The notes under the pieces: model-generated
Told to the model about the DNA's origin: nothing
Databases searched by the model: none
What the model saw: only the letters and a program-made list of their open reading frames with translations
Translations under genes and position numbers: made by a program
Virus record (IMG/VR): IMGVR_UViG_3300035698_034795
Span: 1-23,519 of that record
DNA from: a virus
Strand: one strand, 5' to 3'
DNA: 23,519 bases
Part shown: piece by piece, positions 948-13,665 of the stretch
Numbering within the stretch: position 1 is the first letter of the stretch
How the letters are laid out: each line of letters opens with the position of its first letter

Positions 948-3371
948 TCAAACCACAGCAACGATTCTACATTTACAGCGAGTGTGAAGTGGAGGTTTCT
1001 TTCCATTGTGATCCAACTCGTATTTTACCTCGTCAGGGTTAAGCCCCGGGTTAATCCGTTGTGACGGCAATTGAGCCTCGTATTCTTCCGGTGTCATGGC
1101 GATCTCCTTGTCCATCTGAGCGAGGCTACCGGCGATCTCCCATTCCATACCGTCGAAAGGACTGCATATATCGCACGCTCCGTCCATCGTCACCCACCTT
1201 GCTTTCTTGACGTCCGCTTCACGCATCTGGTTCAACTGCCCATAAGACCGCATCCGGACGACGGACGTGTTCACGATCGCTTGTGCTTGATATGTTTGGA
1301 TTGTTTTCACTTTACTTGAGAGCAAATCCTTGAACGCATCGAGGACGGTTGGGTCTGTCCGTCCAAATAAACCGGCGCCTTTTTCGAGGAACTGTTCTTG
1401 AAGAAAATTCGTTGCCGTCTTTTCAACGGCTTCATTTCTGACAAACTTCCCAAGATAGAACCGATCTAATTTCTTCAATGCTGATATCGCACGTGTATCC
1501 GGGCCGCTGAAGCTGAACGTCGCAGGTGCACTCACAGCTTCCCATGCTGACCGATCTACGATCCGGTAATACTTGTACGTATCTTCAACAGCTTCCGAAA
1601 CGATGTCCGTCACTGCCTCTCCGCTCATCGCATCGCCGACGTGCTTCTGGATGATCCGCCAGATCATTTGCCCGAACGTGTCTTCCGCCATATCCCGAAA
1701 CTGCGAGTTCGCGAGGAAATCCTCAACCGCTTGGATCGCACTCTTGCGAGCGTCATCCGACACCGGTTGAAGAGCGTTCAAGTAATTTCGCATCCGCTTA
1801 CCCACTTCCTGCTCGGTAGGACTATCGGCAAGTTCAGTTGTTCCCCCTCTACTTGTAGGGGAACCGACATCATTTCCCCCCTTACTTGTAGGGGGGGAGT
1901 AAGGGGGGGTCAACTCGCCTGTGGTGTCATGCGTCCCCGCTTGACGACCTATTCTAACGATAGGTCGTTCGTACTGATACAGCCCGTTCTTCCGGGTCAA
2001 CTCGATTGACTTTGTAGCGCTTAGTCCACCTCCGAACCCAATCCCTCCGAATCCACCATAAGCAAGGTCCGGATTGTCCGCCGACGCATAACCCATCTCA
2101 CGCGCCCCCTCGTCCGCTGAAATGTATCCCGCCGTAACATTTGACCGGATACGGGCGTGATCCTGAGCTTTCGCTTGACTCACAGCCAACGGATCGGCTT
2201 CAAAGTTCTCGTTGAATTCCACAGACACACCCGCCGGATCAATACCTTTGAGCGCAAGATGCAACCGGAACAGGAACCGTAACGCCTCCGCAACACGCCT
2301 TTGATACGGACGCACCTTACGTGTCTCCATCCGCCACAGGATCTGCATCGCCGCGAGTACAGGCTTATATGCCCGACCAATAAACGCGCCTTCAATTCCC
2401 ATCCCACTTAGAGTGTCTTCTGTTATTGAGTGTAAGAAATCAATAGATCCTGTCGCGTTCGCAACCGGATTGAAATGTTTAAGCTCTATGTCGTCGAAGG
2501 TTACGACAAGTCCTTTATTAAGGTTGCCGGCAAGCGACTCCGCGTACCGATTAAGTATCGCATTTAGTTGAATAAGGTCGTCCGGATTTGCGGGATCAAG
2601 GTCCTCCGGCGGGTGAATCGCCGCATTAACAAGCCCGACACCTCCGAACTTCTTGAAGAAATACTTGACGTTCGTATTGATGTCATCCAATAAAAGGAGC
2701 GACGGAATTGATGACATAAACGGCGGGATCGGATAAGGGCTGTTGTCCTGAAAATCGAGGATGGAGAACTTGTAAGTCTTCGGATCCAGTTGTATCAGAT
2801 CCCCTCGGTTCGTCAATTGATGCGGCACGAATTGCCCGTCGGTCAGTTCGAACCGAATCTGGCGAACCGGTACAAGGGCGACTTCCAGTACGCCGTCACG
2901 CATCTTCGTCAGTATTGTTTCAAAGCTCAGAGCTCCGTAGATCGCCAAATCCTGCAGGCAGTGATCAATGAGTCCTTCGATCCCTCCTGCCATCGGAAGA
3001 ATAGCACCGGACAGGTTGTTGATCTCTTCATTGATCCGTTCTATATCACTTTCTTTCCTGTCCGTGATAACAATCTTGTGCCCCGATGATGCCAACGACC
3101 GAAAGTACCGCCACCCTTCGTTGACAAGAGGATTAATATGGGCTGCACGACTGAGAAAATCCAATATCTGTGCAGGTGCCCAAGGGCTGATCCCACGCCA
3201 GCTTTCCAGCATGGAGCTCATCCCGCCGGCGAGAGTTGTATGTTCAGCGATGGACTTACGTTGACCGCTGTCACCTGCCGCCAGACCGATCGATCTCGTC
3301 TTCTGTGGCTTGTTCGGTTTCGGTGGTTCAACAACCTTCTTTCGACCGAATATGTTTTCCCACACACTCAT
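948..3371 (-). CDS. Phage portal protein fused to a Mu F-like head morphogenesis domain
   Basis: This 807-residue protein combines two head proteins that are separate in Mu (gp29 portal and gp30/F). Residues about 1-450 look like a portal: N-terminal arm, mixed alpha/beta core, and a long helical region with the segment RKVRPYQRRVAEALRFLF, ending in a Gly-rich stretch (YGGFGGIGFGGG). The portal forms the dodecameric DNA channel at the capsid vertex. Residues about 640-807 are Mu F-like (PF04233): the end carries C733-x2-C736 (ACDICSPFDG) and H796-x2-C-x-C (HTRCKCRI), a typical metal-binding signature of that family. The two are joined by a low-complexity linker at about 476-512 that is encoded by dispersed repeats (1841-1945). 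ATG at 3371 has only a weak GGGAT-type site. The gene is 116 nt from the terminase gene, a gap filled by repeats B and C. Portal identity rests on overall pattern and context; the F domain is clearer. Confidence 0.85.
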   Translation of the reverse strand: MSVWENIFGRKKVVEPPKPNKPQKTRSIGLAAGDSGQRKSIAEHTTLAGGMSSMLESWRGISPWAPAQILDFLSRAAHINPLVNEGWRYFRSLASSGHKIVITDRKESDIERINEEINNLSGAILPMAGGIEGLIDHCLQDLAIYGALSFETILTKMRDGVLEVALVPVRQIRFELTDGQFVPHQLTNRGDLIQLDPKTYKFSILDFQDNSPYPIPPFMSSIPSLLLLDDINTNVKYFFKKFGGVGLVNAAIHPPEDLDPANPDDLIQLNAILNRYAESLAGNLNKGLVVTFDDIELKHFNPVANATGSIDFLHSITEDTLSGMGIEGAFIGRAYKPVLAAMQILWRMETRKVRPYQRRVAEALRFLFRLHLALKGIDPAGVSVEFNENFEADPLAVSQAKAQDHARIRSNVTAGYISADEGAREMGYASADNPDLAYGGFGGIGFGGGLSATKSIELTRKNGLYQYERPIVRIGRQAGTHDTTGELTPPYSPPTSKGGNDVGSPTSRGGTTELADSPTEQEVGKRMRNYLNALQPVSDDARKSAIQAVEDFLANSQFRDMAEDTFGQMIWRIIQKHVGDAMSGEAVTDIVSEAVEDTYKYYRIVDRSAWEAVSAPATFSFSGPDTRAISALKKLDRFYLGKFVRNEAVEKTATNFLQEQFLEKGAGLFGRTDPTVLDAFKDLLSSKVKTIQTYQAQAIVNTSVVRMRSYGQLNQMREADVKKARWVTMDGACDICSPFDGMEWEIAGSLAQMDKEIAMTPEEYEAQLPSQRINPGLNPDEVKYELDHNGKKPPLHTRCKCRIVAVV
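1841..1861 (+). repeat. Dispersed repeat family A, truncated copy inside the portal gene
   Basis: This is the core palindrome of family A (CCCCCTCTACTTGTAGGGG) without its trailing AGTAAGGG arm. It is read on the minus strand as the portal linker residues SPTSRGG. The reading frame is intact. Confidence 0.85.
1874..1911 (+). repeat. Dispersed repeat family A, full copy inside the portal gene
   Basis: The copy has C-run, TTACTTGTA, G7, AGTAA, G7, TC. Here CCCCCCTTACT (1876-1886) can pair perfectly with AGTAAGGGGGG (1898-1908), which competes with the inner CCCC/GGGG stem. It encodes TPPYSPPTSKGG on the minus strand. Confidence 0.9.
1921..1945 (+). repeat. Dispersed repeat family F, copy 2, inside the portal gene
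   Basis: This is a 25/25 identical second copy of 917-941. On the minus strand it is translated in frame as part of the linker (QAGTHDTTG). Together with the two family A copies it forms a repeat block of about 105 nt joining the portal and F domains. Confidence 0.9.
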
Positions 3372-3393
3372 TAATATCTATCCCGCAAAATAA

Positions 3394-3412
3394 TTGTCAT
3401 TCCCGCGAAAAC
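3394..3412 (+). repeat. Dispersed repeat family B, truncated copy
   Basis: The left half of family B (TGTCATTCCCGCGAAA) lies in the terminase-portal gap, directly followed by a family C copy. The right arm is missing. Confidence 0.7.
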
Positions 3413-3415
3413 GTC

Positions 3416-3457
3416 GGGTGGCACGGGCTACTTGTTGCCCGTGTTTCTTTACTCATT
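3416..3457 (+). repeat. Dispersed repeat family C, copy 1
   Basis: The hairpin CACGGGC/GCCCGTG has an 8-nt loop (TACTTGTT) and a GTTTCTTTACTCATT tail. It is nearly identical to 10755-10797 and close to 7644-7677. It separates terminase from portal, genes that usually abut in phage packaging operons. Confidence 0.9.
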
Positions 3458-3487
3458 CATTACTATAAGGAGCAAATATGCCGACCG

Positions 3488-4981
3488 TCAACCTGCTTTC
3501 ACTTCCATCGGATTAGCATACGCCGGCAACACGCCGGTGTAACGCTTTGCTCTCGCGCCTCGGATCGTCTGGACGAGCATTTCCAAACAATCAACAGCGT
3601 CGTCGTGTGACCCTTTCGGCCATGTCAATAGCTCGTCAATCAACCATTTCAGGTTTCGGCTTATTCGGATTGCCCGCTGTTCCAACAGTGGAACGAGTCC
3701 CATAATCCGCAAATCCTTCGGTGCCGCGCCTTTGGCATTCAGTTCCTTGACGGCGATGTATCTGCCCGACTCCTTTCCGACTTCGCGGATCGTCTGTGCC
3801 ATCGCCGCTTGATAGGCGACGGATTCAATCCCTGCCCGTAGCGTATTGAATCTGTCATGTGAATCGAGGATCACCTCTGCTTGACGGGAGAACCCGAACC
3901 GTCCGCGAACGCCGTGTCCAACCCAGATCGTTCCGTCCGGTGCCTTCCACCCAACCAAATTTATAAAGTAGTCCGCTGTTTTCTTCTGGCTGATCGCCAG
4001 ATCGCTGGCTTGATAGGCGGGCCATGACGTATCCACCTCACCGTCGAACAGACACGCTTCAACCACTTCCGGTTTGAACGGTTGCGTTTCCGGATCAACC
4101 GGATTATTCTGATATTCCTGCTCGAACGCAACCGAACCGATTTCTTTCTTCTTCGCCGTCAGCTTTTCCGGTGTCCAATACTCCGGCCACAAGGTCTTGA
4201 TCGGATTGCCACCCGCGTCAAATTCCTCAACGGCGCGGTAAATCTTACTCCAATAGCTCTCATTGTTTAATAGATATGACAGCAAGGCATCATGATGCAA
4301 AATTGTGCCGACCACAAAAATCTTACCACCTTCCGCACCCAACAAATTTGAGGCAGCTCTTTTCCACCATCGTTTTAGCTTAGCACACCCGGAACGACTT
4401 TCCGCCATCTCATCACCATCAATATCATCGCCTAAGATCTGATCGGGACGTATACCTTTCTTGACCATTCCACGCATCGACGCACCGGCTCCCAACGCCA
4501 CAATCCGAACACCATTAGAAAGTTGCAACTTCTTCTGTGACCACTTACCACCCCTCGAAAGATCACCATAATCCTGGCGCAACATTTCGTTCTCATCAAG
4601 CTCATTGCTAATATCCTCGAGTAGATCCTCTGCCATCGTTGCCGTAGCTTGGATGATAACGATATACATGCTTCGCTTATTGACTGCCTGATAAAGTGCC
4701 GCTGCAATCGTGACCACCTGCGTCTTGGCGTGTCCGCGTGGTGCGGCGATGGCAACCCGATCACGTTCTTCTAATGCCTCAACAAGCTCATAATGAAACG
4801 GGGGACTCGGAGCACGGAAGATATGAGGCAAATAAGTTCTACCGAACTCGATGACGTGACTGCCGTCAGCTCGCGGTTCACACCGTGCCCTCCGCACTTC
4901 AGACGTTTCACCGGCTGTCCCGGTCGGTTGCCTGAGGACATCACCGGCGATCTTGCCGACGTTTTTCTTAGGACGAGGCAA
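3488..4981 (-). CDS. Terminase large subunit (DNA packaging ATPase/nuclease)
   Basis: This is the packaging motor: an N-terminal ATPase pumps DNA into the prohead and a C-terminal RNase H-fold nuclease cuts it. Numbered from an upstream in-frame TTG at 5014, the Walker A-like motif is APRGHAKT (91-98), Walker B is QILGDD (192-197), and nuclease acidic residues appear at D338 (QASDLA), E397 (GIESVA) and D471/D472 (SHDDAVD). That frame is 508 residues, normal for TerL. I place the start at TTG 4981, because GGAGG lies 6 nt upstream of it while TTG 5014 has no clear site. The shorter form begins PRPKKNVGK and is 497 residues. Either way it overlaps the end of the small subunit gene (14 or 47 nt), implying translational coupling. 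Mu packages by a headful mechanism, and the same is expected here. Confidence 0.9.
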   Translation of the reverse strand: MPRPKKNVGKIAGDVLRQPTGTAGETSEVRRARCEPRADGSHVIEFGRTYLPHIFRAPSPPFHYELVEALEERDRVAIAAPRGHAKTQVVTIAAALYQAVNKRSMYIVIIQATATMAEDLLEDISNELDENEMLRQDYGDLSRGGKWSQKKLQLSNGVRIVALGAGASMRGMVKKGIRPDQILGDDIDGDEMAESRSGCAKLKRWWKRAASNLLGAEGGKIFVVGTILHHDALLSYLLNNESYWSKIYRAVEEFDAGGNPIKTLWPEYWTPEKLTAKKKEIGSVAFEQEYQNNPVDPETQPFKPEVVEACLFDGEVDTSWPAYQASDLAISQKKTADYFINLVGWKAPDGTIWVGHGVRGRFGFSRQAEVILDSHDRFNTLRAGIESVAYQAAMAQTIREVGKESGRYIAVKELNAKGAAPKDLRIMGLVPLLEQRAIRISRNLKWLIDELLTWPKGSHDDAVDCLEMLVQTIRGARAKRYTGVLPAYANPMEVKAG

Positions 4982-5492
4982 ATTCAGCCTCCGCCGCCGA
5001 TGCAAGTTGCTCAAGAACTTCTGGAGTCAAAGCCTGCTCCAGCGCAGGCACACTGATCATTGCACGACGGAGCTTCTCCATCACACCCCGCAGTTGTGCC
5101 GGTCTCAGTTCACCGCCGGATTCACCCATGCCGGTCAATTTTATATAAGTTTTCATCGTAGCATTCATTGCGAATACCGTAGACGCAAAGCTGCTCGGTT
5201 CAAGATCTGCGATGAGATAATCAAGACACTGATCAAGAAGTTCACGCAGACGACCAGTGAAATATTCATAATACTCTGCACGTTTTTTGTCTGCTTGATC
5301 ACGTTTCTCGCTTTGGATATTCGCGATCCGCTCCGTCCAGTTGTCCTCTTTCGCGAACCGTTGGATCGTTTTCCGGTCAATCGTGGAACAGTCCACCCGC
5401 TCGGATCGTAGCCGTCTCACAACAGCTTCATACGAACCCAATGCCATATAATAGGTGAGTGCCAACTCTCGCACATCCGGATGATAAGCCAT
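4968..5492 (-). CDS. Terminase small subunit (Mu gp27-type)
   Basis: This 174-residue protein has an N-terminal helix-turn-helix region of the terminase small subunit kind (DVRELALTYYMALGSYEAVV, then TIDRKTIQRFAKEDNW), a charged central helical part and a helical C-terminus. The small subunit recognises the packaging start and loads the large subunit. The start is ATG 5492, which overlaps the preceding stop as TAATG and has GGGGG upstream. A longer open frame to 5606 only duplicates the previous gene in another frame. It is immediately followed by the large subunit gene with overlapping ends. The family call rests on the fold pattern and position. Confidence 0.75.
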   Translation of the reverse strand: MAYHPDVRELALTYYMALGSYEAVVRRLRSERVDCSTIDRKTIQRFAKEDNWTERIANIQSEKRDQADKKRAEYYEYFTGRLRELLDQCLDYLIADLEPSSFASTVFAMNATMKTYIKLTGMGESGGELRPAQLRGVMEKLRRAMISVPALEQALTPEVLEQLASAAEAEFASS

Positions 5493-5782
5493 TAGAACGC
5501 CCCCTTCACAAGCGAACTGAGCACTTTGAACCATCCCAGCTTTTCGCCTATTACGATTGAAGTCAGCCCCAACAGCCAAAATAATCCGACCCGCAAATAT
5601 AGCCAATGGAAAGCGAACTTGCGGCTTCCTTCATCCAATCGGCGGTTGAGCAGTTCACGTCTTTCTATCTCATTCTCTCGATCTTCCTTTAGTTGTGAGG
5701 TCAAGCCATCCACTGATTTTGTTAGATTGCTGACGCCTTGCATCAACTGCCCAAATTTCACTGGATCAATTTCAGCTGGCAT
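5492..5782 (-). CDS. Small coiled-coil protein with C-terminal membrane segment
   Basis: This 96-residue protein has a charged helical N-terminal two-thirds (heptad-like KSVDGLTSQLKEDRENEIER) and a hydrophobic segment at about 61-80 (LYLRVGLFWLLGLTSIVIG), then a short basic/hydrophobic tail. It sits between lysis-type genes and terminase, where Mu carries small gp24-gp26 proteins including a coiled-coil/TM protein of the DUF2730 type. Equivalence to that family is a guess from position. A role at the inner membrane, such as a holin accessory, is possible. ATG 5782 has GAAGGGG upstream and lies 4 nt after the previous stop. Its own stop overlaps the terminase small subunit start. Confidence 0.7.
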   Translation of the reverse strand: MPAEIDPVKFGQLMQGVSNLTKSVDGLTSQLKEDRENEIERRELLNRRLDEGSRKFAFHWLYLRVGLFWLLGLTSIVIGEKLGWFKVLSSLVKGAF

Positions 5783-5786
5783 ATCA

Positions 5787-6083
5787 TTACCCCTTCAGGT
5801 AGTTCTTTATGGCATCAAGTTTGCCTTTTTCCAATGCGATGCTTGCTTCGTCAATACGGGTCTTGGACAGAATGATCGCCGCGAGCATACTATCCAGATC
5901 GGCGTTGATCCGTTCAGCCGTTTCCGCCGCAAGTGCTTGTTTTTCCTTCAGCAATTGCGTGTTGGCTTTGATTGTTTCCAGTGTATCCTTGCGTAATTCC
6001 GTCTCCTCAGGCGGGATAGTTTGATACACTTCAAGCAGGTCGCTGATAGATTTTTTCAATCCATCAAGAGTCTCTTGGCTCAT
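5787..6083 (-). CDS. Small helical (coiled-coil) protein, unknown function
   Basis: This 98-residue soluble protein is predicted to be almost entirely alpha-helical, with long charged heptads (TLETIKANTQLLKEKQALAA) and no Cys, signal or membrane segment. The start is ATG 6083, where ATGA overlaps the upstream stop and GAGGAGAAGAA provides a strong ribosome site. An open frame reaching back to 6161 is upstream-gene sequence in another frame. It belongs to the cassette of small genes between endolysin and terminase and could be a minor head or lysis accessory factor. I do not recognise it. Confidence 0.7.
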   Translation of the reverse strand: MSQETLDGLKKSISDLLEVYQTIPPEETELRKDTLETIKANTQLLKEKQALAAETAERINADLDSMLAAIILSKTRIDEASIALEKGKLDAIKNYLKG

Positions 6084-6307
6084 TTCTTCTCCTCTCGCTT
6101 TTGAGGGATGACCTTTTCGGCAACGTTCGCGCCCAGGTAGGCTGTGCAAATAATCATCCATCCGCTAAGCACATGCCGAGCCAGATCCAACGCTTCGCGG
6201 TTGCCCGCGTGGAAGCTCAACACATACAGGACCACCGCAAATGCCAACACCGCCGCCGCAAGGACTACGGTGAACTTCCGCCCGCCTGGTTTGTCGAGCA
6301 GTTTCAT
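6080..6307 (-). CDS. Holin candidate, two transmembrane segments
   Basis: This 75-residue protein has two hydrophobic helices: about residues 12-31 (FTVVLAAAVLAFAVVLYVL) and about 47-63 (LSGWMIICTAYLGANVA). The ends are charged and the C-terminus is basic (PQKREEKK). Size, two TM segments and the charged tail fit class II-like holins, which permeabilise the inner membrane so that a cytosolic endolysin can reach the wall. The nearby amidase has no signal peptide and so needs such a partner. ATG 6307 is chosen because it overlaps the preceding stop as ATGA, the pattern used in this operon; ATG 6316 is the alternative. No sequence family was recognised, so the holin call rests on topology and context. 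Confidence 0.65.
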   Translation of the reverse strand: MKLLDKPGGRKFTVVLAAAVLAFAVVLYVLSFHAGNREALDLARHVLSGWMIICTAYLGANVAEKVIPQKREEKK

Positions 6308-6690
6308 TGTTTCCATACTCGGTTCATGGCGCTAACCGCTTGGCTGATCAGAAGGTCAATCGCTTTCTTGAGTGCCCATCCGTCAAACGCCTCCAACCAG
6401 AACGGCAACCGGATCGCGTTGTCAATCTCGTCGAGCAGATTGTACTTGCTGTCAAAATGATCAAACACATCACAGACCAGTTTGTGTTTGATCTCACCTT
6501 TCTTCGCACCCTTGACGACCGTTTCAGCGGATTCCACCAGTGTGGTGATCAGGTCGAGAACGTCCAGCACTTCGATGTTTCCGTCGTGGATTTTCTTCCA
6601 ATTGGCGATAACGGTTTCACCCGTTTGGATCAGGGTTTCTTTCATCGTGTCCTTTTTCGGTGTGCCCTTTTTTTTCGTATTTTTTTTCAC
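6304..6690 (-). CDS. Lysine-rich helical protein, unknown function
   Basis: This protein has up to 128 residues. The first 15 are Lys/Thr-rich (MKKNTKKKGTPKKDT). The rest is mainly helical with alternating charged and hydrophobic stretches (VLDVLDLITTLVESAETVVK) but no clear membrane segment. Start GTG 6690 has AGAGGA 8 nt upstream. An internal ATG at 6645 with AAAGGA 4-5 nt upstream is an equally good alternative and would drop the basic tail. Its stop overlaps the holin candidate start. It is the second gene of the late operon, after the endolysin and a repeat-filled gap. Function not recognised. Confidence 0.6.
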   Translation of the reverse strand: MKKNTKKKGTPKKDTMKETLIQTGETVIANWKKIHDGNIEVLDVLDLITTLVESAETVVKGAKKGEIKHKLVCDVFDHFDSKYNLLDEIDNAIRLPFWLEAFDGWALKKAIDLLISQAVSAMNRVWKQ

Positions 6691-6721
6691 AGCTTCATTC
6701 CTCTTGAAATTTTATATTCCA

Positions 6722-6748
6722 GTGCTGGCAGAACCCCTCGTCTGCCGG
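6722..6748 (+). repeat. Dispersed repeat family D, partial copy
   Basis: Only the first hairpin of family D is present (GGCAGA...TCTGCC, loop around ACCCCTCG). It sits just before a family A copy in the endolysin-downstream gap. Confidence 0.7.
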
Positions 6749-6756
6749 TTATAAGT

Positions 6757-6794
6757 TTCCCCCCCTACTTGTAGGGGGGGAGTAAGGGGGGGTC
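6757..6794 (+). repeat. Dispersed repeat family A
   Basis: Full copy: C7, TACTTGTA, G7, AGTAA, G7, TC. It is intergenic, between the endolysin stop and the next late gene. Confidence 0.9.
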
Positions 6795-6800
6795 TCTATT

Positions 6801-6828
6801 TGTCATTCCCGCGAAAGCGGGAATCCAG
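6801..6828 (+). repeat. Dispersed repeat family B
   Basis: Full copy with the hairpin TTCCCGC-GAAA-GCGGGAA and flanks TGTCA/TCCAG. The endolysin stop codon (6834-6836) lies 6 nt beyond it. Confidence 0.9.
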
Positions 6829-6833
6829 TTTGT

Positions 6834-7412
6834 CTATTCGGTTTCTTTTGATGTTGAAAAATTGAGGTAGTCAAAAATCCCCGTGGCGATCGCCTGGGCA
6901 ATTTTCTCGTGAATGGCATCCTTCCCCTTCAGCAGTGCCGCATCCTCCGGGTTCGATAGGAACAGAGGTTCAACGATCACCGCTGCTGTTGGAGGCTTGA
7001 TTTTGCGGAGCCAAGCCACAAGTTTATTCTCCTTGTCACCGCGATAGTAGCCCATCTTGATCCCGCGATCTTTCACCCCGCAGCATTCGACGATCTGTTT
7101 TTGGATCATTGTCGCCAAGGTTTGGGATGTCGCAAGAGTTCCGTGCAGGGTTTCGGCGCCGGAGGCTTGTCCAGAGGCTTCGGCGTTGAAGTGCAGTTCA
7201 ACGGCGATGTCCGGTTGATCCTGATTGATGCGTCCGATCTTACTACTCAGCCTGACGTTATTGATGACGGTCACGTCGAGACCGGCGTCTTCCAACAGTG
7301 GACGCAACAGTTCGATCACCTTGACCGCTTCAGGATATTCGGACATACCGTGATAGGATGCGCCCGGTTTGGACTTCGTATGTCCGGCGGATATGACTAC
7401 TTTGAATCTCAT
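6834..7412 (-). CDS. N-acetylmuramoyl-L-alanine amidase (phage endolysin)
   Basis: This 192-residue single-domain Amidase_3-type zinc enzyme cleaves the bond between N-acetylmuramic acid and the stem peptide L-Ala. Expected zinc and catalytic residues are visible: H11 (SAGHT), E28 (EYPEAV), H74 (ELHFNA) and E148 (VEPLFLSN). There is no signal peptide or wall-binding domain, so it is probably released through a holin (candidate at 6080-6307). ATG 7412 has AGAGGA upstream. It is the first gene of the leftward late operon, directly behind a good promoter at 7442-7470. Lysis genes before terminase is the Mu/BcepMu order. Confidence 0.92.
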   Translation of the reverse strand: MRFKVVISAGHTKSKPGASYHGMSEYPEAVKVIELLRPLLEDAGLDVTVINNVRLSSKIGRINQDQPDIAVELHFNAEASGQASGAETLHGTLATSQTLATMIQKQIVECCGVKDRGIKMGYYRGDKENKLVAWLRKIKPPTAAVIVEPLFLSNPEDAALLKGKDAIHEKIAQAIATGIFDYLNFSTSKETE

Positions 7413-7436
7413 CGGTTCCTCTGAATTATCTCTTAC

Positions 7437-7540: not shown

Positions 7541-7547
7541 CAATTGT

Positions 7548-7586
7548 TTCCCCCCCCTACTTGTAGGGGGGGAGTAAGGGGGGGTC
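7548..7586 (+). repeat. Dispersed repeat family A
   Basis: Full copy, immediately upstream (minus strand) of the repressor operon terminator. It is the first of five repeats stacked between 7548 and 7706. Confidence 0.9.
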
Positions 7587-7592
7587 TCTATT

Positions 7593-7604
7593 CGTCATTC
7601 CCGC
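7593..7604 (+). repeat. Dispersed repeat family B fragment
   Basis: CGTCATTCCCGC only. This is the left arm of family B without its partner. Confidence 0.5.
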
Positions 7605-7612
7605 ATTCACCT

Positions 7613-7640
7613 TGTCATTCTGGCGAAAGCCGGAATCCAG
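7613..7640 (+). repeat. Dispersed repeat family B, compensated variant
   Basis: The stem reads TTCTGGC-GAAA-GCCGGAA instead of TTCCCGC/GCGGGAA. One changed pair is compensated on both arms (Watson-Crick) and another becomes T-G, so hairpin pairing is preserved despite sequence change. Confidence 0.85.
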
Positions 7641-7643
7641 ATT

Positions 7644-7677
7644 GGGTGGCAAGGGCTACTTGTTGCCCGTGTTTCTA
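7644..7677 (+). repeat. Dispersed repeat family C, copy 2
   Basis: GGGTGGCAAGGGCTACTTG and following bases match 3416 and 10755 with few changes. It is abutted on both sides by family B copies. Confidence 0.85.
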
Positions 7678-7679
7678 TT

Positions 7680-7706
7680 CGTCATTCCAGCGAAAACGGG
7701 AATCCA
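7680..7706 (+). repeat. Dispersed repeat family B
   Basis: CGTCATTCCAGCGAAAACGG and following bases are a diverged copy with an imperfect stem. It lies 42 nt downstream of the lipoprotein stop on the minus strand. Confidence 0.75.
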
Positions 7707-7748
7707 TCTGTTAATTTGTGCACCGCCTGCACAAGTTAACTCATCAGG

Positions 7749-8210
7749 CTATTCTGTCAGTGGATTATCATAACCTCTACTGTTCAACTCGCGACGAAAA
7801 GCGTTAAAATACGCAGTATAATTTTCCTGCGTCATTTGATCCTTGGTAAGGATAATAGTTCCCGCGCGGTCATACATAAGTCCTCTACCAGTCATCCGCA
7901 CTTGCGTGGTGTCCTCACTGATTCTTTCCAGAGAGATTTGGAGGTCAATTCGCGACCGACTTGCTCCGCCTATCGCTTGCATCAATAAATGGGGCTCCGC
8001 TTCCTTATACCCATGGATAAGCCCCGTCTGCATATCTGCATTGTCAATGACGACGTAGTTACTTTGCAACACACTTGTGACTGATTTGAATATCTGCTCG
8101 TATGATCCGTGCAGTTTTTGGGTTTGCATTTGTCGTTGATTCCTGACGAATACGCGCGTTGCACACCCAACCATTAACAGGCAAAAGACCAATATAGTTA
8201 ATCGCTTCAT
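7749..8210 (-). CDS. Lipoprotein, probable lysogen-expressed accessory gene
   Basis: This 153-residue protein has a classical lipoprotein signal: MKRLTILVFCLLMVGC, with lipobox LMVGC and lipidated Cys16. The mature part has a helix-strand pattern (YEQIFKSVTSVLQSNYVVID, then beta-rich segments), reminiscent of small helix-grip lipoproteins, but no family is certain. The start overlaps the previous gene as ATGA (8207-8210), and the unit ends in a strong terminator. It is the third gene of an operon headed by the phage repressor, so it should be expressed in the lysogen. A surface lipoprotein plus a membrane protein in this position suggests superinfection exclusion or another change to the host envelope. 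That function is inference. Confidence 0.8.
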   Translation of the reverse strand: MKRLTILVFCLLMVGCATRVFVRNQRQMQTQKLHGSYEQIFKSVTSVLQSNYVVIDNADMQTGLIHGYKEAEPHLLMQAIGGASRSRIDLQISLERISEDTTQVRMTGRGLMYDRAGTIILTKDQMTQENYTAYFNAFRRELNSRGYDNPLTE

Positions 8211-8512
8211 TTCCCATTCTCCGTTATGTCTGTCTTTTCTTTCACCATATTGACGGTTAATTGACCGATGTTCTCAGCCATATCGACGAACAATACTATC
8301 CCTTCTCCGATAGCGTAAAGCGTAACCCCAAGTATTGCACTTCCAAGAAAGAACAAAAATCTCACTGGAATTCCCATTGTATTTTGATAATTCCCCAGTG
8401 AGAATTCATTAACTAATGAGCTCACCAAAGGAAGAAAAGAAACTATCCCCGCGAGTATCCCAAGCACTTTGAACAATCCTGAGCAAAATACTAACGCATT
8501 GTATGGTCGCAT
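8207..8512 (-). CDS. Membrane protein with two to three hydrophobic segments
   Basis: This 101-residue protein has a hydrophobic N-terminal region (about 7-35, VFCSGLFKVLGILAGIVSFL, possibly one or two helices) and a second membrane helix at about 50-75 (FLFFLGSAILGVTLYAIGEG). A hydrophilic C-terminal tail follows (KEKTDITENGK). ATG 8512 lies 6 nt after the repressor stop, and its own stop overlaps the lipoprotein start, so the three genes form one tight unit. The family is not recognised. With the lipoprotein it is a candidate membrane-level exclusion pair. Confidence 0.75.
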   Translation of the reverse strand: MRPYNALVFCSGLFKVLGILAGIVSFLPLVSSLVNEFSLGNYQNTMGIPVRFLFFLGSAILGVTLYAIGEGIVLFVDMAENIGQLTVNMVKEKTDITENGK

Positions 8513-8518
8513 AAGTCT

Positions 8519-8959
8519 TTATTCCTTCCTCCCTTTTATATCACGCCGGTATATCACCAGCGCTTGTTTATAGAAATTCACGTCCGGTATGAAGAATCCG
8601 CTGAACCGGATATTCTTCAATGCTTTAATCTCTTCTTCCGTCAGTTGAAGCAGAGTCATCTCGTATTCATCGTCAAGAAGCTCCTGCAACGCAGGATACA
8701 CCTCGAACCCCTCTTCGTTGTTCGGCTCATACCGATCCTGATCAGGCTCCTTCCCTGTGATCAACCAGGTTAAATCGCAACAGAGTACCTCAGCGATCTT
8801 CTCAGCATCTGTTGTTGTGGGCACAGTTCGTCCGGACTCGAAATTTTGAATAGTCGTCAAAGATTTACCTATTAATTGAGCCAACCTTGACTGACTTATT
8901 CCCATTTCCGTACGAGCGCTCTTAATACGATACCCGATAAATTTGTTGTTACCCAACAT
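8519..8959 (-). CDS. XRE-family transcription regulator, probable prophage repressor
   Basis: This 146-residue protein has a Cro/C1-type helix-turn-helix at about residues 7-65: IGYRIKSARTEMGISQSRLA, then an IQNFESGRTVP recognition region and AEKIAEVLCCDLTWLITGK. The C-terminal half is acidic and has no S24 peptidase Ser/Lys dyad that I can see, so SOS-type self-cleavage is not expected. It is divergent from the Ner-like gene, with an 82-nt control region between holding overlapping promoters and a palindrome. This is the standard place for a phage repressor. It heads the operon with the membrane protein and lipoprotein genes. ATG 8959 has only a weak ribosome site. Confidence 0.85.
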   Translation of the reverse strand: MLGNNKFIGYRIKSARTEMGISQSRLAQLIGKSLTTIQNFESGRTVPTTTDAEKIAEVLCCDLTWLITGKEPDQDRYEPNNEEGFEVYPALQELLDDEYEMTLLQLTEEEIKALKNIRFSGFFIPDVNFYKQALVIYRRDIKGRKE

Positions 8960-8975
8960 AACAAGCCCATTTCAC

Positions 8976-9005
8976 TTGACATACCCAATATATCACCTAT
9001 ATTAT
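8976..9005 (+). promoter_or_regulatory. Early rightward promoter
   Basis: TTGACA (8976-8981) is a perfect -35. The -10 is TATATT (8998-9003, 16-nt spacer) or TATTAT (9000-9005, 18-nt spacer). It drives the Ner-like gene and the early operon. Confidence 0.75.
8982..8993. promoter_or_regulatory. Operator-like 12-mer within the early promoter spacer
   Basis: TACCCAATATAT is identical to 7437-7448 at the late promoter. It lies between -35 and -10 of the early promoter. It is proposed as a second protein-binding site beside the palindrome at 8995-9009. Confidence 0.45.
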
Positions 9006-9009
9006 AGGT
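8995..9009. promoter_or_regulatory. Perfect 15-bp palindromic operator candidate
   Basis: ACCTATATTATAGGT is two perfect 7-bp half sites about a central T (9002). It covers the -10 elements of both divergent promoters, so one bound dimer could block both. It is the best operator candidate for the repressor or the Ner-like protein. Confidence 0.65.
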
Positions 9010-9030
9010 AAAGTTAATCTACTAACGCAA
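9001..9030 (-). promoter_or_regulatory. Repressor promoter (leftward)
   Basis: On the minus strand there is a perfect TATAAT (9006-9001) with TTGCGT (9030-9025) 18 nt upstream. Its -10 overlaps that of the rightward promoter, so the two cannot be occupied by polymerase together. Confidence 0.65.
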
Positions 9031-9041
9031 TATAATGCATT

Positions 9042-9284
9042 ATGCTTCCAGTTGCAATACGTGTGGCGATGGCTCGTAAAGGATTGTCACAACGTGACAT
9101 AGCCCGCCACCTCGGAATATCCGAGCAGGCAATCAGTTTCATCCTGCACGGACAGCGTCAAGCCCGCCGTTCCAGAAAGTTGATCGGTGAACTTTTGGGC
9201 GTCGATCTCGATGTGCATGTCCCCGTCCGTGTTCCACGAAAGATCGCCTATTCTAAACCTAAACCACAGGAGCCGAACCAATGA
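9042..9284 (+). CDS. Ner/Cro-like helix-turn-helix regulator
   Basis: This 80-residue small DNA-binding protein has its HTH at about 13-40 (KGLSQRDIARHLGISEQAIS, then FILHGQRQARRS). It is first in the rightward early operon and divergent from the repressor, the position of Mu ner or lambda cro, whose products turn down early and repressor transcription. The C-terminal tail is basic and Pro-rich. No Shine-Dalgarno precedes ATG 9042, and the ATG overlaps a 12-bp palindrome, ATAATGCATTAT (9032-9043). ATG 9069 is an alternative that would trim nine residues. The stop overlaps the next start as ATGA. Confidence 0.85.
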   Translation: MLPVAIRVAMARKGLSQRDIARHLGISEQAISFILHGQRQARRSRKLIGELLGVDLDVHVPVRVPRKIAYSKPKPQEPNQ

Positions 9285-9499
9285 AAGAGTGCATGACCGA
9301 ACAAGACCAGGAGTGCGCCACACGCATCACCATAGCGTGGCTCGAATCAATCAGCCAACTCGGTAAACCTATGTCCGCTGGTGATGTCGCTGAAGGTTAC
9401 CAAATCATCGCCGATGCGGTGCTCAGCTATGTTCCGCCTGAGCATCGGAAGGAATCTGATCATCAGACGCCGCCTTCACAGAACGATAAGCCCAGTTGA
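9281..9499 (+). CDS. Small early protein, unknown function
   Basis: This 72-residue acidic, mainly helical protein (ITIAWLESISQLGKPMSAGD) has a polar, disordered-looking tail. Start ATG 9281 overlaps the Ner-like stop (ATGA) and has AGGAG upstream, so translation is coupled. Not recognised. A repeat array of about 200 nt follows. Confidence 0.65.
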   Translation: MKECMTEQDQECATRITIAWLESISQLGKPMSAGDVAEGYQIIADAVLSYVPPEHRKESDHQTPPSQNDKPS

Positions 9500-9508
9500 T
9501 AACATTAT

Positions 9509-9536
9509 TGTCATTCCCGCGAAAGCGGGAATCCAG
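9509..9536 (+). repeat. Dispersed repeat family B
   Basis: Full copy, identical over 28 nt to 6801-6828. It is the first of four different repeats lying side by side (9509-9686). Confidence 0.9.
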
Positions 9537-9542
9537 ATTGAC

Positions 9543-9597
9543 GTGTAGGCAGACGCCCTCGTCTGCCTGCCTTCCGTCACACGAGGGAGTGTGACGA
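9543..9597 (+). repeat. Dispersed repeat family D, twin hairpin
   Basis: Hairpin 1 is GGCAGACG-CCCT-CGTCTGCC. Hairpin 2 is GTCACAC-GAGGGA-GTGTGAC. The CCCT and AGGG loop bases are complementary. Confidence 0.9.
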
Positions 9598-9600
9598 CTC

Positions 9601-9639
9601 TTCCCCCCCTACTTGTAGGGGGGGAGTAAGGGGGGGGTC
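9601..9639 (+). repeat. Dispersed repeat family A
   Basis: Full copy in the gap between two early genes, directly after family D. Confidence 0.9.
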
Positions 9640-9651
9640 AACATTAAATAC

Positions 9652-9686
9652 TGTCATTACGAGGAACGCAGTGACGAAGCAACCTC
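9652..9686 (+). repeat. Dispersed repeat family E, copy 1
   Basis: TGTCATTACGAGGAACGCAG and following bases, ending in CAACCTC. It is followed closely by ACAGGAG and the next start codon, an arrangement repeated at 9963-10020. Confidence 0.9.
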
Positions 9687-9707
9687 ACACAAACAGGAGA
9701 AAAACCA

Positions 9708-9917
9708 ATGAACAACGAAGCACCCGCAGTCAACCCTGAACTCTTCAGGAAAGCCGCATCCGTCATCGAAACCATCAATGACAGCCTGCCTCCAAACATC
9801 CAATTGAAAAGTGCCAAAACGGAAATTGGCACTACCCTCAAAGGTGAGGTCTGTCTGGAGCTGACCGCCACGATATCGATGATCATTTTTCCGGAGGATG
9901 GTCCGTCGCATCAGTAG
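9708..9917 (+). CDS. Small early protein, unknown function
   Basis: This 69-residue protein has a predicted N-terminal helix (ELFRKAASVIETINDSL) then beta-prone segments (LKGEVCLELTATISMIIF). There is no known motif. ACAGGAG lies 9 nt before ATG 9708, and both are part of a near-duplicate of the sequence before the gene at 10018. It is flanked by repeats on both sides. A small DNA- or protein-binding early function is possible but nothing identifies it. Confidence 0.6.
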   Translation: MNNEAPAVNPELFRKAASVIETINDSLPPNIQLKSAKTEIGTTLKGEVCLELTATISMIIFPEDGPSHQ

Positions 9918-9925
9918 CACGATCC

Positions 9926-9953
9926 TTCCCCCTCTACTTGTAGGGGGGGGGTC
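9926..9953 (+). repeat. Dispersed repeat family A, internally deleted
   Basis: The CCCC/GGGG palindrome is present but the second arm AGTAAGGGG is missing; it runs straight into GTC. It lies just after the 9708-9917 stop. Confidence 0.8.
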
Positions 9954-9962
9954 AACCCCTTT

Positions 9963-9997
9963 TGTCATTGCGAGGAACGCAGTGACGAAGCAATCTC
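9963..9997 (+). repeat. Dispersed repeat family E, copy 2
   Basis: TGTCATTGCGAGGAACGCAG and following bases, ending in CAATCTC. It is followed by AACAAACAGGAGTAAAACCA and ATG 10018. Confidence 0.9.
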
Positions 9998-10017
9998 AAC
10001 AAACAGGAGTAAAACCA

Positions 10018-10689
10018 ATGCCTTATGACCCCAGAATCACCCTCAAAGAGTTCCTACGAACCAGGGTGCAAAACACCAACGCCGAAATCGCAAAGTACCT
10101 CGGGATCACACCTGCGTACTTCAGTATGATACTCAACGGCAAACGAAATTTCCAACCGGATCAAAAAGAGAAACTGATCCAACTCATTGGCACAAAGACC
10201 AACCCTGATCAAATCATCTTTCCAGATGAGTTAACTGGGGCAACCGTTGCACCAGTTGCCTCCGATGAAGACGCCGAGTCGGATCGTGCTGTCAGTCCCT
10301 ATCTGCTTGCCTTTCTCAAGGCACGTGGTTGGTCAGTTCGGAAGCTGGCGAAGGCAATCAATCTTGATCGTGATGAGTTGCGACGGATCCTTGCCGGTCG
10401 TCCCGTCCATTCGAACCTCACGGACATGTGTACCATAGGAGCGATCAGCCGCGCTATCGGCGTTGACACCGACCATATTCCATGGTCACATCCCAGTCAA
10501 AAATGGGCGGGTGACTCCGCCGCAAAGTTCGGTCGCGAACATCCCGAGATGACTGTGGAGAGGGCATTCGAGATGCTTCACAAGGACCTCCGCAAAAGCG
10601 GCGTTGATCCTTCCCCCCCTACAAGTAGGGGGGGAGTAAGGGGGGGTCAAAACGACATCATACCTCCTTCCTGCAGGGGAGCCCGATGA
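10018..10689 (+). CDS. Double helix-turn-helix protein with repeat-encoded C-terminus
   Basis: This 223-residue protein has two Cro-like HTH regions. The first is at about 19-45 (NAEIAKYLGITPAYFSMILN, then GKR) and the second at about 98-130 (WSVRKLAKAINLDRDELRRI). It may be an early-operon regulator or DNA-binding partner. ATG 10018 has ACAGGAG upstream; an open frame running back to 9898 only covers repeat DNA. The last residues from about 197 (SPPTSRGGVRGG and on) are encoded by a family A copy (10611-10648) and following sequence, so the native end has probably been replaced. Whether the tail affects activity is unknown. Confidence 0.75.
   Translation: MPYDPRITLKEFLRTRVQNTNAEIAKYLGITPAYFSMILNGKRNFQPDQKEKLIQLIGTKTNPDQIIFPDELTGATVAPVASDEDAESDRAVSPYLLAFLKARGWSVRKLAKAINLDRDELRRILAGRPVHSNLTDMCTIGAISRAIGVDTDHIPWSHPSQKWAGDSAAKFGREHPEMTVERAFEMLHKDLRKSGVDPSPPTSRGGVRGGQNDIIPPSCRGAR
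10611..10648 (+). repeat. Dispersed repeat family A with inverted core, inside a gene
   Basis: Full length, but the core reads TACAAGTA instead of TACTTGTA, as if the inner loop were flipped. It encodes the C-terminal tail of the 10018-10689 protein. Confidence 0.9.
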
Positions 10690-10710
10690 TCCTTCCCTCC
10701 TAATAATGTT

Positions 10711-10744
10711 CCTGTCAGGTTTCAAGCGAAGCGTAACCTGACGG
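10711..10744 (+). repeat. Imperfect palindrome (single copy in window)
   Basis: GTCAGGTT (10714-10721) pairs with AACCTGAC (10735-10742). It looks like a further dispersed palindromic family, but only one copy is visible. It lies between the double-HTH gene and a family C copy. Confidence 0.6.
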
Positions 10745-10754
10745 GGAATACGAC

Positions 10755-10797
10755 GGGTGGCACGGGCTACTTGTTGCCCGTGTTTCTTTACTCATTA
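10755..10797 (+). repeat. Dispersed repeat family C, copy 3
   Basis: Matches 3416-3457 through GTTTCTTTACTCATT. It ends 25 nt before the next start codon. Confidence 0.9.
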
Positions 10798-10822
10798 CAA
10801 CTCATTACAAATAGGATCAGCA

Positions 10823-11044
10823 ATGTTAACCATCAACCTGCCTAACGGCATCATAATTCTCGACAGCCTGAATGCTGAAGACATGACTTCCGATGAACAA
10901 TTCGCGGTCAAAGAAATTACAGCACTGGCTTTACATTCAGTCGAATCCTCCGCCTATACCGGTCGAATTGACAAACTCAGGAAGGCACTTAACAAAGTCA
11001 ACCTACATCCTCCCATCATCGCCACAACTGTCGGAGCTCAATAA
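10823..11044 (+). CDS. Small early protein, unknown function
   Basis: This 73-residue protein has a beta-prone start (MLTINLPNGIIILDSL), then a helical part rich in Glu/Lys (DEQFAVKEITALALHSVESS). Not recognised. ATG 10823 is chosen with AGGA about 7 nt upstream; an open frame from 10757 covers the family C repeat and is not believed. Its TAA overlaps the next ATG (TAATG). Confidence 0.6.
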   Translation: MLTINLPNGIIILDSLNAEDMTSDEQFAVKEITALALHSVESSAYTGRIDKLRKALNKVNLHPPIIATTVGAQ

Positions 11045-11403
11045 TGAAAGATATTTTTTCAATTTCTCACCGCATCGCGGACAACGGACAACATCTGATT
11101 GATAGTGTTCCGATGACGTTGTGCTACGCAATTCAGGTCAAGGTCAGCCATGACGGAAACTATGCTGTGATCATACAACGCTCCGACCCGGAACACCCGG
11201 GACGTATCAGCCTCAGATACATCCCCGTTGACGACGACCCGGACATAGATGTGATCCTTGCATCCGTCCGGCGTGAACTGGAAAGCAAACTGGTTTGTCG
11301 TTGCGAGGAACGCAGTGACGAAGCAATCTCAAAGAACGGTGATCACCCTATTAACTTCCTCCCCCTCATTGAAATGGAGACAGCCAATGTATCACAAAAA
11401 TAG
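11044..11403 (+). CDS. Early protein, paralogue of the next gene, with repeat-derived tail
   Basis: This 119-residue protein has a core at about 27-82 (YAIQVKVSHDGNYAVIIQRS ... GRISLRYIP ... VILASVRREL), matching the pattern of the next gene (V-x-I, G-x-YA, GR, then a helix ending RR). From residue about 85 the sequence is encoded by a family E repeat (CRCEERSDEAIS) and by DNA leading into the next gene. The repeat is 35 nt, not a multiple of three, so the original C-terminus was probably lost. ATG 11044 overlaps the previous stop (TAATG), and the end overlaps the next gene by 17 nt. Function unknown. Confidence 0.65.
   Translation: MKDIFSISHRIADNGQHLIDSVPMTLCYAIQVKVSHDGNYAVIIQRSDPEHPGRISLRYIPVDDDPDIDVILASVRRELESKLVCRCEERSDEAISKNGDHPINFLPLIEMETANVSQK
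11296..11330 (+). repeat. Dispersed repeat family E, copy 3, inside a gene
   Basis: TGTCGTTGCGAGGAACGCAG and following bases, ending in CAATCTC. It is translated as CRCEERSDEAIS within the 11044-11403 gene. Confidence 0.9.
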
Positions 11404-11677
11404 CCTCTACGTCGAGATTGCGCAAAATAACGGTGAATACGCCATCGTATTCGAGCATCAACCGTCTGGTGACGGGCGGTTGGTAGCATGTGCAAAAAAG
11501 CCGGACGAAAAAACTTTGATCGCCGCCTTGCGCCGTGCGATGGTGCAGTTCCCGCCAGTCAGCGAGGTCGTCACAGATCAATCGGCGATCTTCGCACAAC
11601 GGGACTTTTGCGATTTTCTGTTATGGATGCGAGTCCACCACAGCAGACGCCCATTTAGATTTTTAACAGTTCAATAA
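11387..11677 (+). CDS. Early protein, paralogue of the preceding gene
   Basis: This 96-residue protein has a core (SLYVEIAQNNGEYAIVFEHQ ... GRLVACAKKPDEKTLIAALR) that aligns by eye with the preceding protein: beta strands around G-x-YA, a GR step, then a helix ending in RR. The two look like a tandem duplication. Start ATG 11387 has GGAG 7 nt upstream and lies inside the end of the previous frame; an open frame from 11258 is repeat sequence. No known family or catalytic motif. Confidence 0.65.
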   Translation: MYHKNSLYVEIAQNNGEYAIVFEHQPSGDGRLVACAKKPDEKTLIAALRRAMVQFPPVSEVVTDQSAIFAQRDFCDFLLWMRVHHSRRPFRFLTVQ

Positions 11678-11704
11678 AAAGTAGCAATTTCCCCCGGTGA
11701 AAAC

Positions 11705-11729
11705 AAGAGGTTGAACCACTCTTTTTTTT
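11705..11729 (+). terminator. Possible intrinsic terminator or attenuator inside the early operon
   Basis: AAGAGG can pair with CCACTCTT (one bulged A, short loop) and is followed by eight T residues (11722-11729). The stem is short, so it may only partly stop transcription. It lies in the 97-nt gap between the paralogue pair and the next gene block. Confidence 0.4.
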
Positions 11730-11774
11730 GTAATTACGACAACAGAAAATATTTTGAAATGTAAGGACAACGAA

Positions 11775-12290
11775 ATGAACACAGGAAACAAATTGATCCG
11801 ATTGACAAACAAGCTGCGGGAAGCGTGTAGCAAAGCCGCGCGATCCGAAGAGTTCAATTCCGCAGACAAACTGCAATCCTTTGGACGGTTGTTCGGTCTA
11901 TCGGAAGATTCGTTCAACAACCGCCTCTACGGTCGTGTTGACCTGGACGACAGCTTCATCACAGAAGTTTTCCGCGTGATTAGGGAACAAACACCTGACA
12001 TCGCAGAACAGTTCTTAAGGGAATACTTTTTGGATCAAACGATCCGCATCTCGCCAGAACCAGTCATCCCGTTGAACAACGAGCAGATGCAAATTCTTGT
12101 TTTTCGGGCGATGAATCGGCTGGGCAAACTTGCGGACGACCATGCAAACCACATGTCTGACGGGCTGTTAAGCGTGTCCGAAAAAGAAACAGAAATCGGT
12201 CACGCCGAGATTCTGATCGAAATGCTGAAACGGTATGTTGCTGGTTTGCATCTTAGCCTTGACAATGAAACCAGTAGGAATACACAATGA
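11775..12290 (+). CDS. Early regulatory-type protein, possibly CII-like
   Basis: This 171-residue, largely helical protein has a region at about 31-75 (LQSFGRLFGLSEDSFNNRLY, then GRVDLDDSFITEVFRVI) that resembles the HTH layout of phage regulatory CII-type (CP76) proteins, with a helical C-terminal half. This family assignment is tentative. Start ATG 11775 has AAGGA upstream; an in-frame TTG at 11754 is less likely. The stop overlaps the next start (ATGA at 12287), so this gene opens a tightly coupled three-gene block leading to the transposase. Confidence 0.7.
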   Translation: MNTGNKLIRLTNKLREACSKAARSEEFNSADKLQSFGRLFGLSEDSFNNRLYGRVDLDDSFITEVFRVIREQTPDIAEQFLREYFLDQTIRISPEPVIPLNNEQMQILVFRAMNRLGKLADDHANHMSDGLLSVSEKETEIGHAEILIEMLKRYVAGLHLSLDNETSRNTQ

Positions 12291-12676
12291 CGGATGATTT
12301 CCTCCCTACGTTTTTGAAGCCGATGCGGACAGAGAAACCCTACTGTCCGCTTGACGCCACCACAAATAAGGGGGCTCGGACAACCGCTTTCATCCTAAAG
12401 TTTCTATTGGATCATCCGGGACTCCCGCACACCATAGAGAACATCTATGATGCGCTCCAAGCTCATCATCTCGGGGACGACAAATTTAATCTCAAGCATG
12501 TGGATCGGGTGGTCCGAACCCTGGTTTATATGCGGCTCGTCGAACAGTATGAGGGGGGCTTCGTCGCCTGCAGAACCACATTCTATAAGGCGATCAACAA
12601 ACATATTGAATCTCTCCGCGATATCCAAATCAACGCATCCCGGCGAGCCAAACAATTCACACGAGAAAATCAATAA
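12287..12676 (+). CDS. Winged-helix-like early protein
   Basis: This 129-residue protein has a central part reading like a winged helix: TTAFILKFLLDHPGLPHTIE, then NIYDALQAHHLG, HVDRVVRTLVYMRLVEQYEG and a beta wing. A helical basic tail follows. It is probably DNA-binding, possibly regulatory. It has ATGA overlap with the gene before and TAATG overlap with the gene after. Family not assigned. Confidence 0.65.
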   Translation: MTDDFLPTFLKPMRTEKPYCPLDATTNKGARTTAFILKFLLDHPGLPHTIENIYDALQAHHLGDDKFNLKHVDRVVRTLVYMRLVEQYEGGFVACRTTFYKAINKHIESLRDIQINASRRAKQFTRENQ

Positions 12677-13665
12677 TGGCGAAAAAGAAAAATAACCTGC
12701 CGGCTGAAGCTCCCGCCCTACCGCCGGATCATCCATTGAATCAGATTATCCCATCCCACCTTCAGGATAAGGAATACGACGAGGGCTGGGCGTTCGAACA
12801 GGTCAACCGTTATGTGGCTCAAGGGATTGAGTCCTTCGCTCACGCCGCCAGCATATTAAGCTGGATCGGCGCGAACACAGCAAAAAGCCGCTTCTTGTCG
12901 GTGTGCGAAAAACATGGCATTGAACCGGACGTAATGGCGGTTGCGTCGTGGGCGGCGGCTGATTATTACGGACTGGACAAAACCGGCAAACGGACCAGTC
13001 AAAGGAAGCATCAGAAGCGGTTACCTCTTTCGGAACAAATCAGGTTCCCCCTCTTGGATTCTGATCAAACGCCGGATGAGGATTTGGAAGGTGTGCTGAA
13101 AAACACCCGCAGGAAAGTCGGGCGTCTTGAAACAGAGCTCGAGGTCGAAAAACGCCGTCTGGAGCAAGCGGAAGAGACGAACGTCCAGATGCATCACCGA
13201 TTGACGGAACTGGAACAAGCGGGAGAATGGAAGCCAACAACATCTCTTCAGCAACGGCTCAAATCCGATCTGGAGGGACAGATGTCGCGGGTAGAAACGC
13301 TCGCCGCCGCGATCAGTGGAATAGTCCTTCCTGATCCTGTTGATCATGTACTGGCAGGGGTTGTCCTTGATTTTATAGAAGGGACTGAGGCTCGCGTGCG
13401 TGCCGCCACAGGACGTCTCCGACTCCAGCTTGGCAGTGGAGACATTGATATGATAGTGAGGACAGAAGCTGAAGCTGACATCTCTGTCACGTCTTTTGAG
13501 GAAGGGATCAAGCTGATCCTCACAAACAGCGACAATGAACTATCCGCCTGTCATTCCTGCGAAAGCCAGAATCCAGTAGATGACGATTCCCACCCTACTG
13601 GTAGGGGGGGAGTAAGGGGGGGGTCAAAACGAACAAACACCCGACAACAACGTCGTCTACCTTGA
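12676..13665 (+). CDS. Coiled-coil early protein with repeat-encoded C-terminus
   Basis: This 329-residue protein has a basic N-terminus, then a helical domain (about 30-105; RYVAQGIESFAHAASILSWI) and a strong coiled coil at about 137-183 (RRKVGRLETELEVEKRRLEQ). After these comes an alpha/beta part to about 290. Residues 292 onward (CHSCESQNP, HPTGRGGVRGG) are encoded by a family B copy and a family A copy. The protein precedes the transposase by 30 nt and is made from the same transcript; a role in transposition or replication control is possible but unproven. Start ATG 12676 overlaps the previous stop (TAATG). Confidence 0.7.
   Translation: MAKKKNNLPAEAPALPPDHPLNQIIPSHLQDKEYDEGWAFEQVNRYVAQGIESFAHAASILSWIGANTAKSRFLSVCEKHGIEPDVMAVASWAAADYYGLDKTGKRTSQRKHQKRLPLSEQIRFPLLDSDQTPDEDLEGVLKNTRRKVGRLETELEVEKRRLEQAEETNVQMHHRLTELEQAGEWKPTTSLQQRLKSDLEGQMSRVETLAAAISGIVLPDPVDHVLAGVVLDFIEGTEARVRAATGRLRLQLGSGDIDMIVRTEAEADISVTSFEEGIKLILTNSDNELSACHSCESQNPVDDDSHPTGRGGVRGGSKRTNTRQQRRLP
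13549..13576 (+). repeat. Dispersed repeat family B, inside a gene
   Basis: TGTCATTCCTGCGAAAGCCA and following bases. It is read in frame as CHSCESQNP near the C-terminus of the 12676-13665 protein. Confidence 0.85.
13587..13625 (+). repeat. Dispersed repeat family A, inside a gene
   Basis: A copy with core CACCCTACTGGTAGGGGG and an intact AGTAA plus G-run arm. It encodes HPTGRGGVRGGS at the end of the 12676-13665 protein. Confidence 0.85.

Follow-up and report, generated by a model that had tools for sequence, protein, structure and literature searches.

In-frame palindromic repeats in genes of a predicted Mu/B3-type prophage and in the portal–MuF linker of further lineages

Palindromic repeats lie in frame inside four genes of a predicted Mu/B3-type transposable prophage. 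One of these genes encodes a fusion of portal and MuF domains, and the linker between the two domains carries other, unrelated repeats in separate lineages. In-frame palindromic elements are already known from Rickettsia and from REP-rich chromosomes. Judged by the literature searched, their presence in a phage head protein, and the occurrence of unrelated families in one linker across separate lineages, appear to be new. The explanation favoured here, and held with fairly good confidence, is that REP-like repeats of the host spread into the integrated prophage and that coding copies were tolerated where extra residues could be absorbed.

The prophage and its repeat families

The window, meaning the whole stretch of DNA analysed, comprises an entire IMG/VR record and is 23,519 bases long. 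By its predicted gene set it is a Mu/B3-type transposable prophage: transposase A, the ATPase B and Gam follow one another in this order, and a repressor and a Ner-like gene are divergent. Amidase, terminase and portal genes occupy the left part, the repressor and Ner-like gene the middle, and transposase A, B, Gam and DnaB the right. The early gene order is common to Microcystis, Leptolyngbya and Pseudomonas phages. At the right end, a cellular-type gene for an adenylate-cyclase/TPR protein is probably host flank. A full-length replicative helicase of the DnaB type (17201–18619) lies within this Mu-type prophage. Beyond it, two neighbouring short ORFs (18675–19027) resemble one small gene with a frameshift, through either decay or sequencing error. 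At the extreme contig end (1–74), two 36-nt arms form a perfect inverted repeat around a 2-nt centre, as is typical of chimeric ends and assembly fold-backs. Rfam and tRNA searches returned no matches.

Families A to F are multi-copy in the window, and G and H single-copy. The counts are six for A with a full tail, six for full B, three each for C, D and E, and two for F; windows shuffled under a second-order Markov model are expected to hold 0–0.06 copies. When folded, nearly all families form much better hairpins than their shuffled versions do; against the shuffles A is the weakest because it is very G+C rich. Several unrelated families in a transposable phage had been predicted from the sequence, and the multi-copy families and the Mu/B3-type genes bear this out. 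Repeats total 950 nt: 699 are intergenic (of 2013 intergenic nt) and 251 coding. Self-comparison of terL, transposase A, transposase B, DnaB, Gam, amidase and the flanking cyclase gene revealed no repeat. A, B, D, E and F all lie on the plus strand regardless of gene direction, and one half copy of C on the minus strand, as if orientation were linked to the replication strand. The hairpin-forming repeats probably come from a bacterial chromosome; that they also adjoin the flanking cellular gene counts towards this origin. The A repeat pattern was not found in the viral contigs and GTDB genome contigs searched.

Table 1. Genes and repeat features of the window.
Feature	Position	Strand	Details
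Family F, second copy	917..941	+	7 nt past portal–MuF stop codon; 25/25 identity to 1921–1945
Portal–MuF fusion protein, 807 aa	948..3371	-	Portal domain ~43–436 (phrog_3753 E=2e-52); MuF-like region ~684–807 (phrog_4728 E=7e-8); full-length fused homologues
In-frame linker insertion, residues 476–511, RQAGTHDTTGELTPPYSPPTSKGGNDVGSPTSRGGT	1841..1945	-	A' 1841–1864, A 1874–1911, F 1921–1945
Intergenic family C	3416..3457	+	31 nt from terL stop (3488, minus strand)
Intergenic D-A-B	6720..6832	+	2 nt from amidase stop (6834, minus strand)
Intergenic A-B-B-C-B	7550..7708	+	41 nt from stop of 7749–8210 (minus strand)
Intergenic cluster B-D-A-E	9508..9686	+	9 nt past stop of 9281–9499
Intergenic A-E	9924..9997	+	7 nt past stop of 9708–9917
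HTH regulator, repeat-encoded tail, residues 198–223, PSPPTSRGGVRGGQNDIIPPSCRGAR	10018..10689	+	A 10610–10648, diverged A-like 10660–10685; HTH_3/HTH_31
Intergenic H + C	10711..10796	+	22 nt past HTH gene stop
Small protein, tail residues 85–119 beginning with family E	11044..11403	+	E 11295–11330
Protein upstream of transposase A, tail residues 291–329	12676..13665	+	B 13548–13577, then A 13586–13625
Transposase A and B genes, Mu/B3-type	13696..16465	+	phrog_310 E=3e-50, phrog_296 E=7e-20; repeat-free
Family B	18626..18656	+	7 nt past DnaB-helicase stop
G, C (half, minus), D beside flanking adenylate-cyclase/TPR gene	20312..20462	+	15 nt from cyclase stop; G matches L060/L061 linker insert

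The portal–MuF linker

Searches with the portal or the transposase as a single sequence gave no matches. Profile searches yielded nothing closer than distant transposases but succeeded for the portal, leading to full-length portal–MuF fusions among viral contigs; a profile built from the window and L061 found no additional close relative. The closest portal homologue (L060/L061, 45% identity) has no counterpart of the inserted residues, and the window's linker residues are absent from all fused homologues compared (24–45% identity). Since fused homologues exist without these residues, the fusion is older than the repeats, which arrived later as a lineage-specific insertion. The alignment with homologues that the original prediction had called for therefore speaks against ancestral residues in the portal. 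More distant relatives encode portal and MuF in two neighbouring genes. The idea that the repeats themselves fused once-separate portal and MuF genes is ruled out by the fused homologues without repeats.

The insert measures 105 nt, exactly 35 codons. A linker of about 37 residues had been proposed here; its location and frame were right, and family F had not been told apart. The peptide stretch THDTTGELTPPYSPPTSK is part of the linker. The next gene downstream has a homologue in L060/L061 (51% identity), where it overlaps the portal end; in the window the F repeat lies between the two. In an AF2 model of modest quality (16 sequences, mean pLDDT 66.8), residues 470–515 are coil with pLDDT <50; other stretches are also of low confidence. 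No allele of this prophage with an empty site was found.

Each portal gene was compared with the remainder of its own contig to detect interspersed repeats. Significant repeats were found in four lineages, and all lie in the interdomain linker. The L060/L061 insert (GGCGGACAGGAATGTTCGC.., second copy at L061:10945–10970) has the palindrome of family G, which in the window lies next to the cellular gene. L025/L085 carry AACTCACCCCCAGCCCCTCTCTTGAGAAAAGAGGG in several copies, with two weaker matches farther along the linker, and differ little from each other in a population comparison. The L066 linker holds a GAGG-rich repeat of low complexity that is weakly palindromic. The repeats of these three lineages align to about window residues 449–467. 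Remaining matches in portal ORFs are short self-palindromes and one repeat upstream of the L064 start, and among ten terminase genes used as controls there was a single marginal match of 16 nt. The linker (residues 432–517) is ~11% of the protein; by our own arithmetic, the chance of four out of four lineages falling there is ~1e-4. Tree positions, differing sequences and differing exact positions together establish the insertions as independent.

The L085 repeat family also lies in frame in four other ORFs: near the N-terminus of two, at both ends of one and inside the fourth. In-frame palindromes at termini and inside are seen in L085 ORFs 1162–1722, 10748–11116, 11221–11541 and 15820–16137, one of which has tandem KMEGE-type units near its N-terminus. 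The L025/L085 portal–MuF protein continues ~110 residues beyond the MuF end (L025:7900–8274), possibly as an extra C-terminal domain.

Protein ends and intergenic clusters

The other three coding placements are C-terminal tails. Together with the linker they confirm that repeats lie in four ORFs without breaking them, and the mapped residues support insertion between two domains in one case and at the ends of proteins in the others. As had been predicted, the tail of the HTH regulator contains family A, and that of the protein upstream of transposase A contains B plus A. Family E, however, encodes only ~12 of the 35 tail residues of the 11044–11403 protein; the remainder is spacer, read through as far as the beginning of the following gene. 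A weak paralogue of this protein stands in tandem (11387–11677, E value ~0.001), and the similarity stops before the repeat. The 12676–13665 gene occupies the same position as in B3-type phages and has no significant sequence match to them. A search for homologues of the three tail genes found none.

Nine repeat clusters, nearly every intergenic cluster in the window, begin 2–41 nt behind a stop codon (table 1). Published REPs likewise prefer sites behind gene 3' ends, and some provide a stop or ORF end (PMC3733652). Because nearly all intergenic clusters sit directly behind stop codons, we infer that the tails are the in-frame version of this default position, the old stop codon having been lost or bypassed. 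Two gene starts (9650–9710 and 9961–10020) have in common, besides family E, the spacer after it, the ribosome-binding site and the ATG (AACAAACAGGAGNAAAACCAATG, exactly or nearly). Taking the longest ORF would give two proteins an N-terminus encoded by repeats (9898–10017 and 10757–10822); ribosome-binding sites favour the later ATG.

Origin of the coding copies and relation to known elements

The repeats are most likely tolerated insertions of host repeats. REP-like palindromes of the host chromosome would enter the integrated prophage, usually landing directly behind stop codons. (i) Copies in coding sequence would persist only where the protein absorbs the residues and the repeat is met in an open frame; the frames open, out of six, are three for A, five for B and three for E. 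(ii) At C-termini, repeat and spacer would substitute for the old protein end. (iii) In portal–MuF, the insertion would be absorbed by the unstructured linker between the domains. Within this scheme we infer that every family stems from the host and that the copies are selectively neutral, as well as how the three tails arose and the mechanism, whether transposition or copying.

An effect of annotation or decay would reduce the tails to reading frames that run on into intergenic repeats, with no product of interest, in a prophage for which these genes have become dispensable. The frameshift-like break at 18675–18809, the small share of E in the 11044–11403 tail and the artificial lengthening by repeats of the longest ORFs (9898 and 10757) are consistent with it. 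This account is unlikely: the portal is intact over all 807 residues, with its 45% identity to L061, and the other major genes are open.

A second possibility is that insertion is directed to some feature of the DNA at the portal–MuF border, for instance a former gene end or an older palindrome, in which case targeting acts and not tolerance alone. Four lineages have been struck in one linker, repeats elsewhere prefer gene 3' ends, and relatives with separate portal and MuF genes have their border here. The exact positions nevertheless vary by lineage, the split-gene relatives have no strong repeat at the border, and tolerance alone predicts the same pattern. Such targeting is distinctly unlikely.

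Recruitment, as proposed for some Rickettsia elements, would mean that the repeat-encoded residues serve as a useful spacer or tail and that selection on the peptide maintains them. All four ORFs remain open, the insert sits at the functional portal/MuF border, and several lineages lengthen this linker. Against these points stand the unrelated sequences at one site and the differing frames. Family A is translated in two frames within the window (TPPYSPPTSRGG and SPPTCRGGVRGG), and the L085 repeat in three; that one repeat is read in differing frames fits tolerated insertion better than recruitment of a peptide. L023, L024 and L065, moreover, manage with a linker ~45 residues shorter. That the DNA palindromes are still nearly perfect suggests that they were inserted recently, not that the peptide is under selection. 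Recruitment is therefore very doubtful. The original prediction spoke of repeats used as coding sequence: their placement in translated frames holds, whereas functional use is unsupported, given the differing frames and the position of most copies behind stops. There is likewise only a slim chance that the linker is a genuine recurrent target across transposable phages and, in addition, that the added peptides alter a spacing important for head assembly. That tails and linker are ancestral coding sequence merely resembling repeats is almost certainly wrong, as homologues without the linker residues contradict it for the portal, where nothing in its favour was found, and identical DNA is present between genes; homologues of the three tail genes were searched for and not found.

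With tolerated insertion of host repeats as the preferred reading, the portal–MuF linker would be a natural insertion-tolerance map, in which repeats mark where a phage protein accepts extra residues. It is also a clear setting for asking whether such elements contribute to new protein sequence or are only tolerated. The fusions compared (L019–L025, L060–L068, L085, L089) share domain order and full-length homology with that of the window, but a repeat-lengthened linker occurs in four lineages only. No phage case of in-frame palindromic elements was found in the literature searched, which included few subscription journals.

Rickettsia palindromic elements form several families that lie in frame in unrelated genes; they are reported to be ~150 bp long and to have a conserved peptide (PMC10969869, PMC3733652). 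The likeness to them that had been suggested is supported. Interspersed palindromes in frame in unrelated genes are common to both, as are homologues without the insert, seen here for the portal. Family B, moreover, fits the published sequence and fold features of CGTC-1 REPs within the 23.5-kb record, and this group includes R. conorii RPE-6 and Neisseria dRS3 (PMC3733652). Its copies have TGTC or CGTC at the 5' end, where the group has unpaired CGTC, TGTC or CCTC. The computed fold gives an 8-bp stem beginning AT with a 4-nt loop (ATTCCCGC-GAAA-GCGGGAAT), followed by a short unpaired CCA tail (..GGGAATCCAG). All seven B copies seen are in one orientation; head–head dimers are a tendency of CGTC-1 REPs, not a strict definition. 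In contrast to the Rickettsia elements, no conserved peptide is encoded, A being read in two frames, and the elements are only 25–55 nt long, or at most 105 nt as the portal cluster. Nor is there any pointer to a Rickettsia host for the window prophage. The idea that family A is a GTAG REP, of the RAYT-mobilised kind, was considered and rejected: such REPs have an unpaired GTAG at one end, whereas that of A pairs within the palindrome CCCCCCCTAC-TT-GTAGGGGGGG.

GTAG and CGTC REPs (Di Nocera et al. 2013) are short palindromes found mostly behind gene 3' ends, with some in frame in genes or at ORF ends; clusters encode 20–82 residues, and different REPs occupy approximately the same recB site in two Xanthomonas species (PMC3733652). 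The repeats described here resemble those of REP-decorated genes in being short palindromes with a 3'-end bias and some in-frame copies. They differ in setting, a Mu-like prophage and a structural protein, in the presence of several unrelated families in one small region, and in the insertion of different families into one linker across several lineages.
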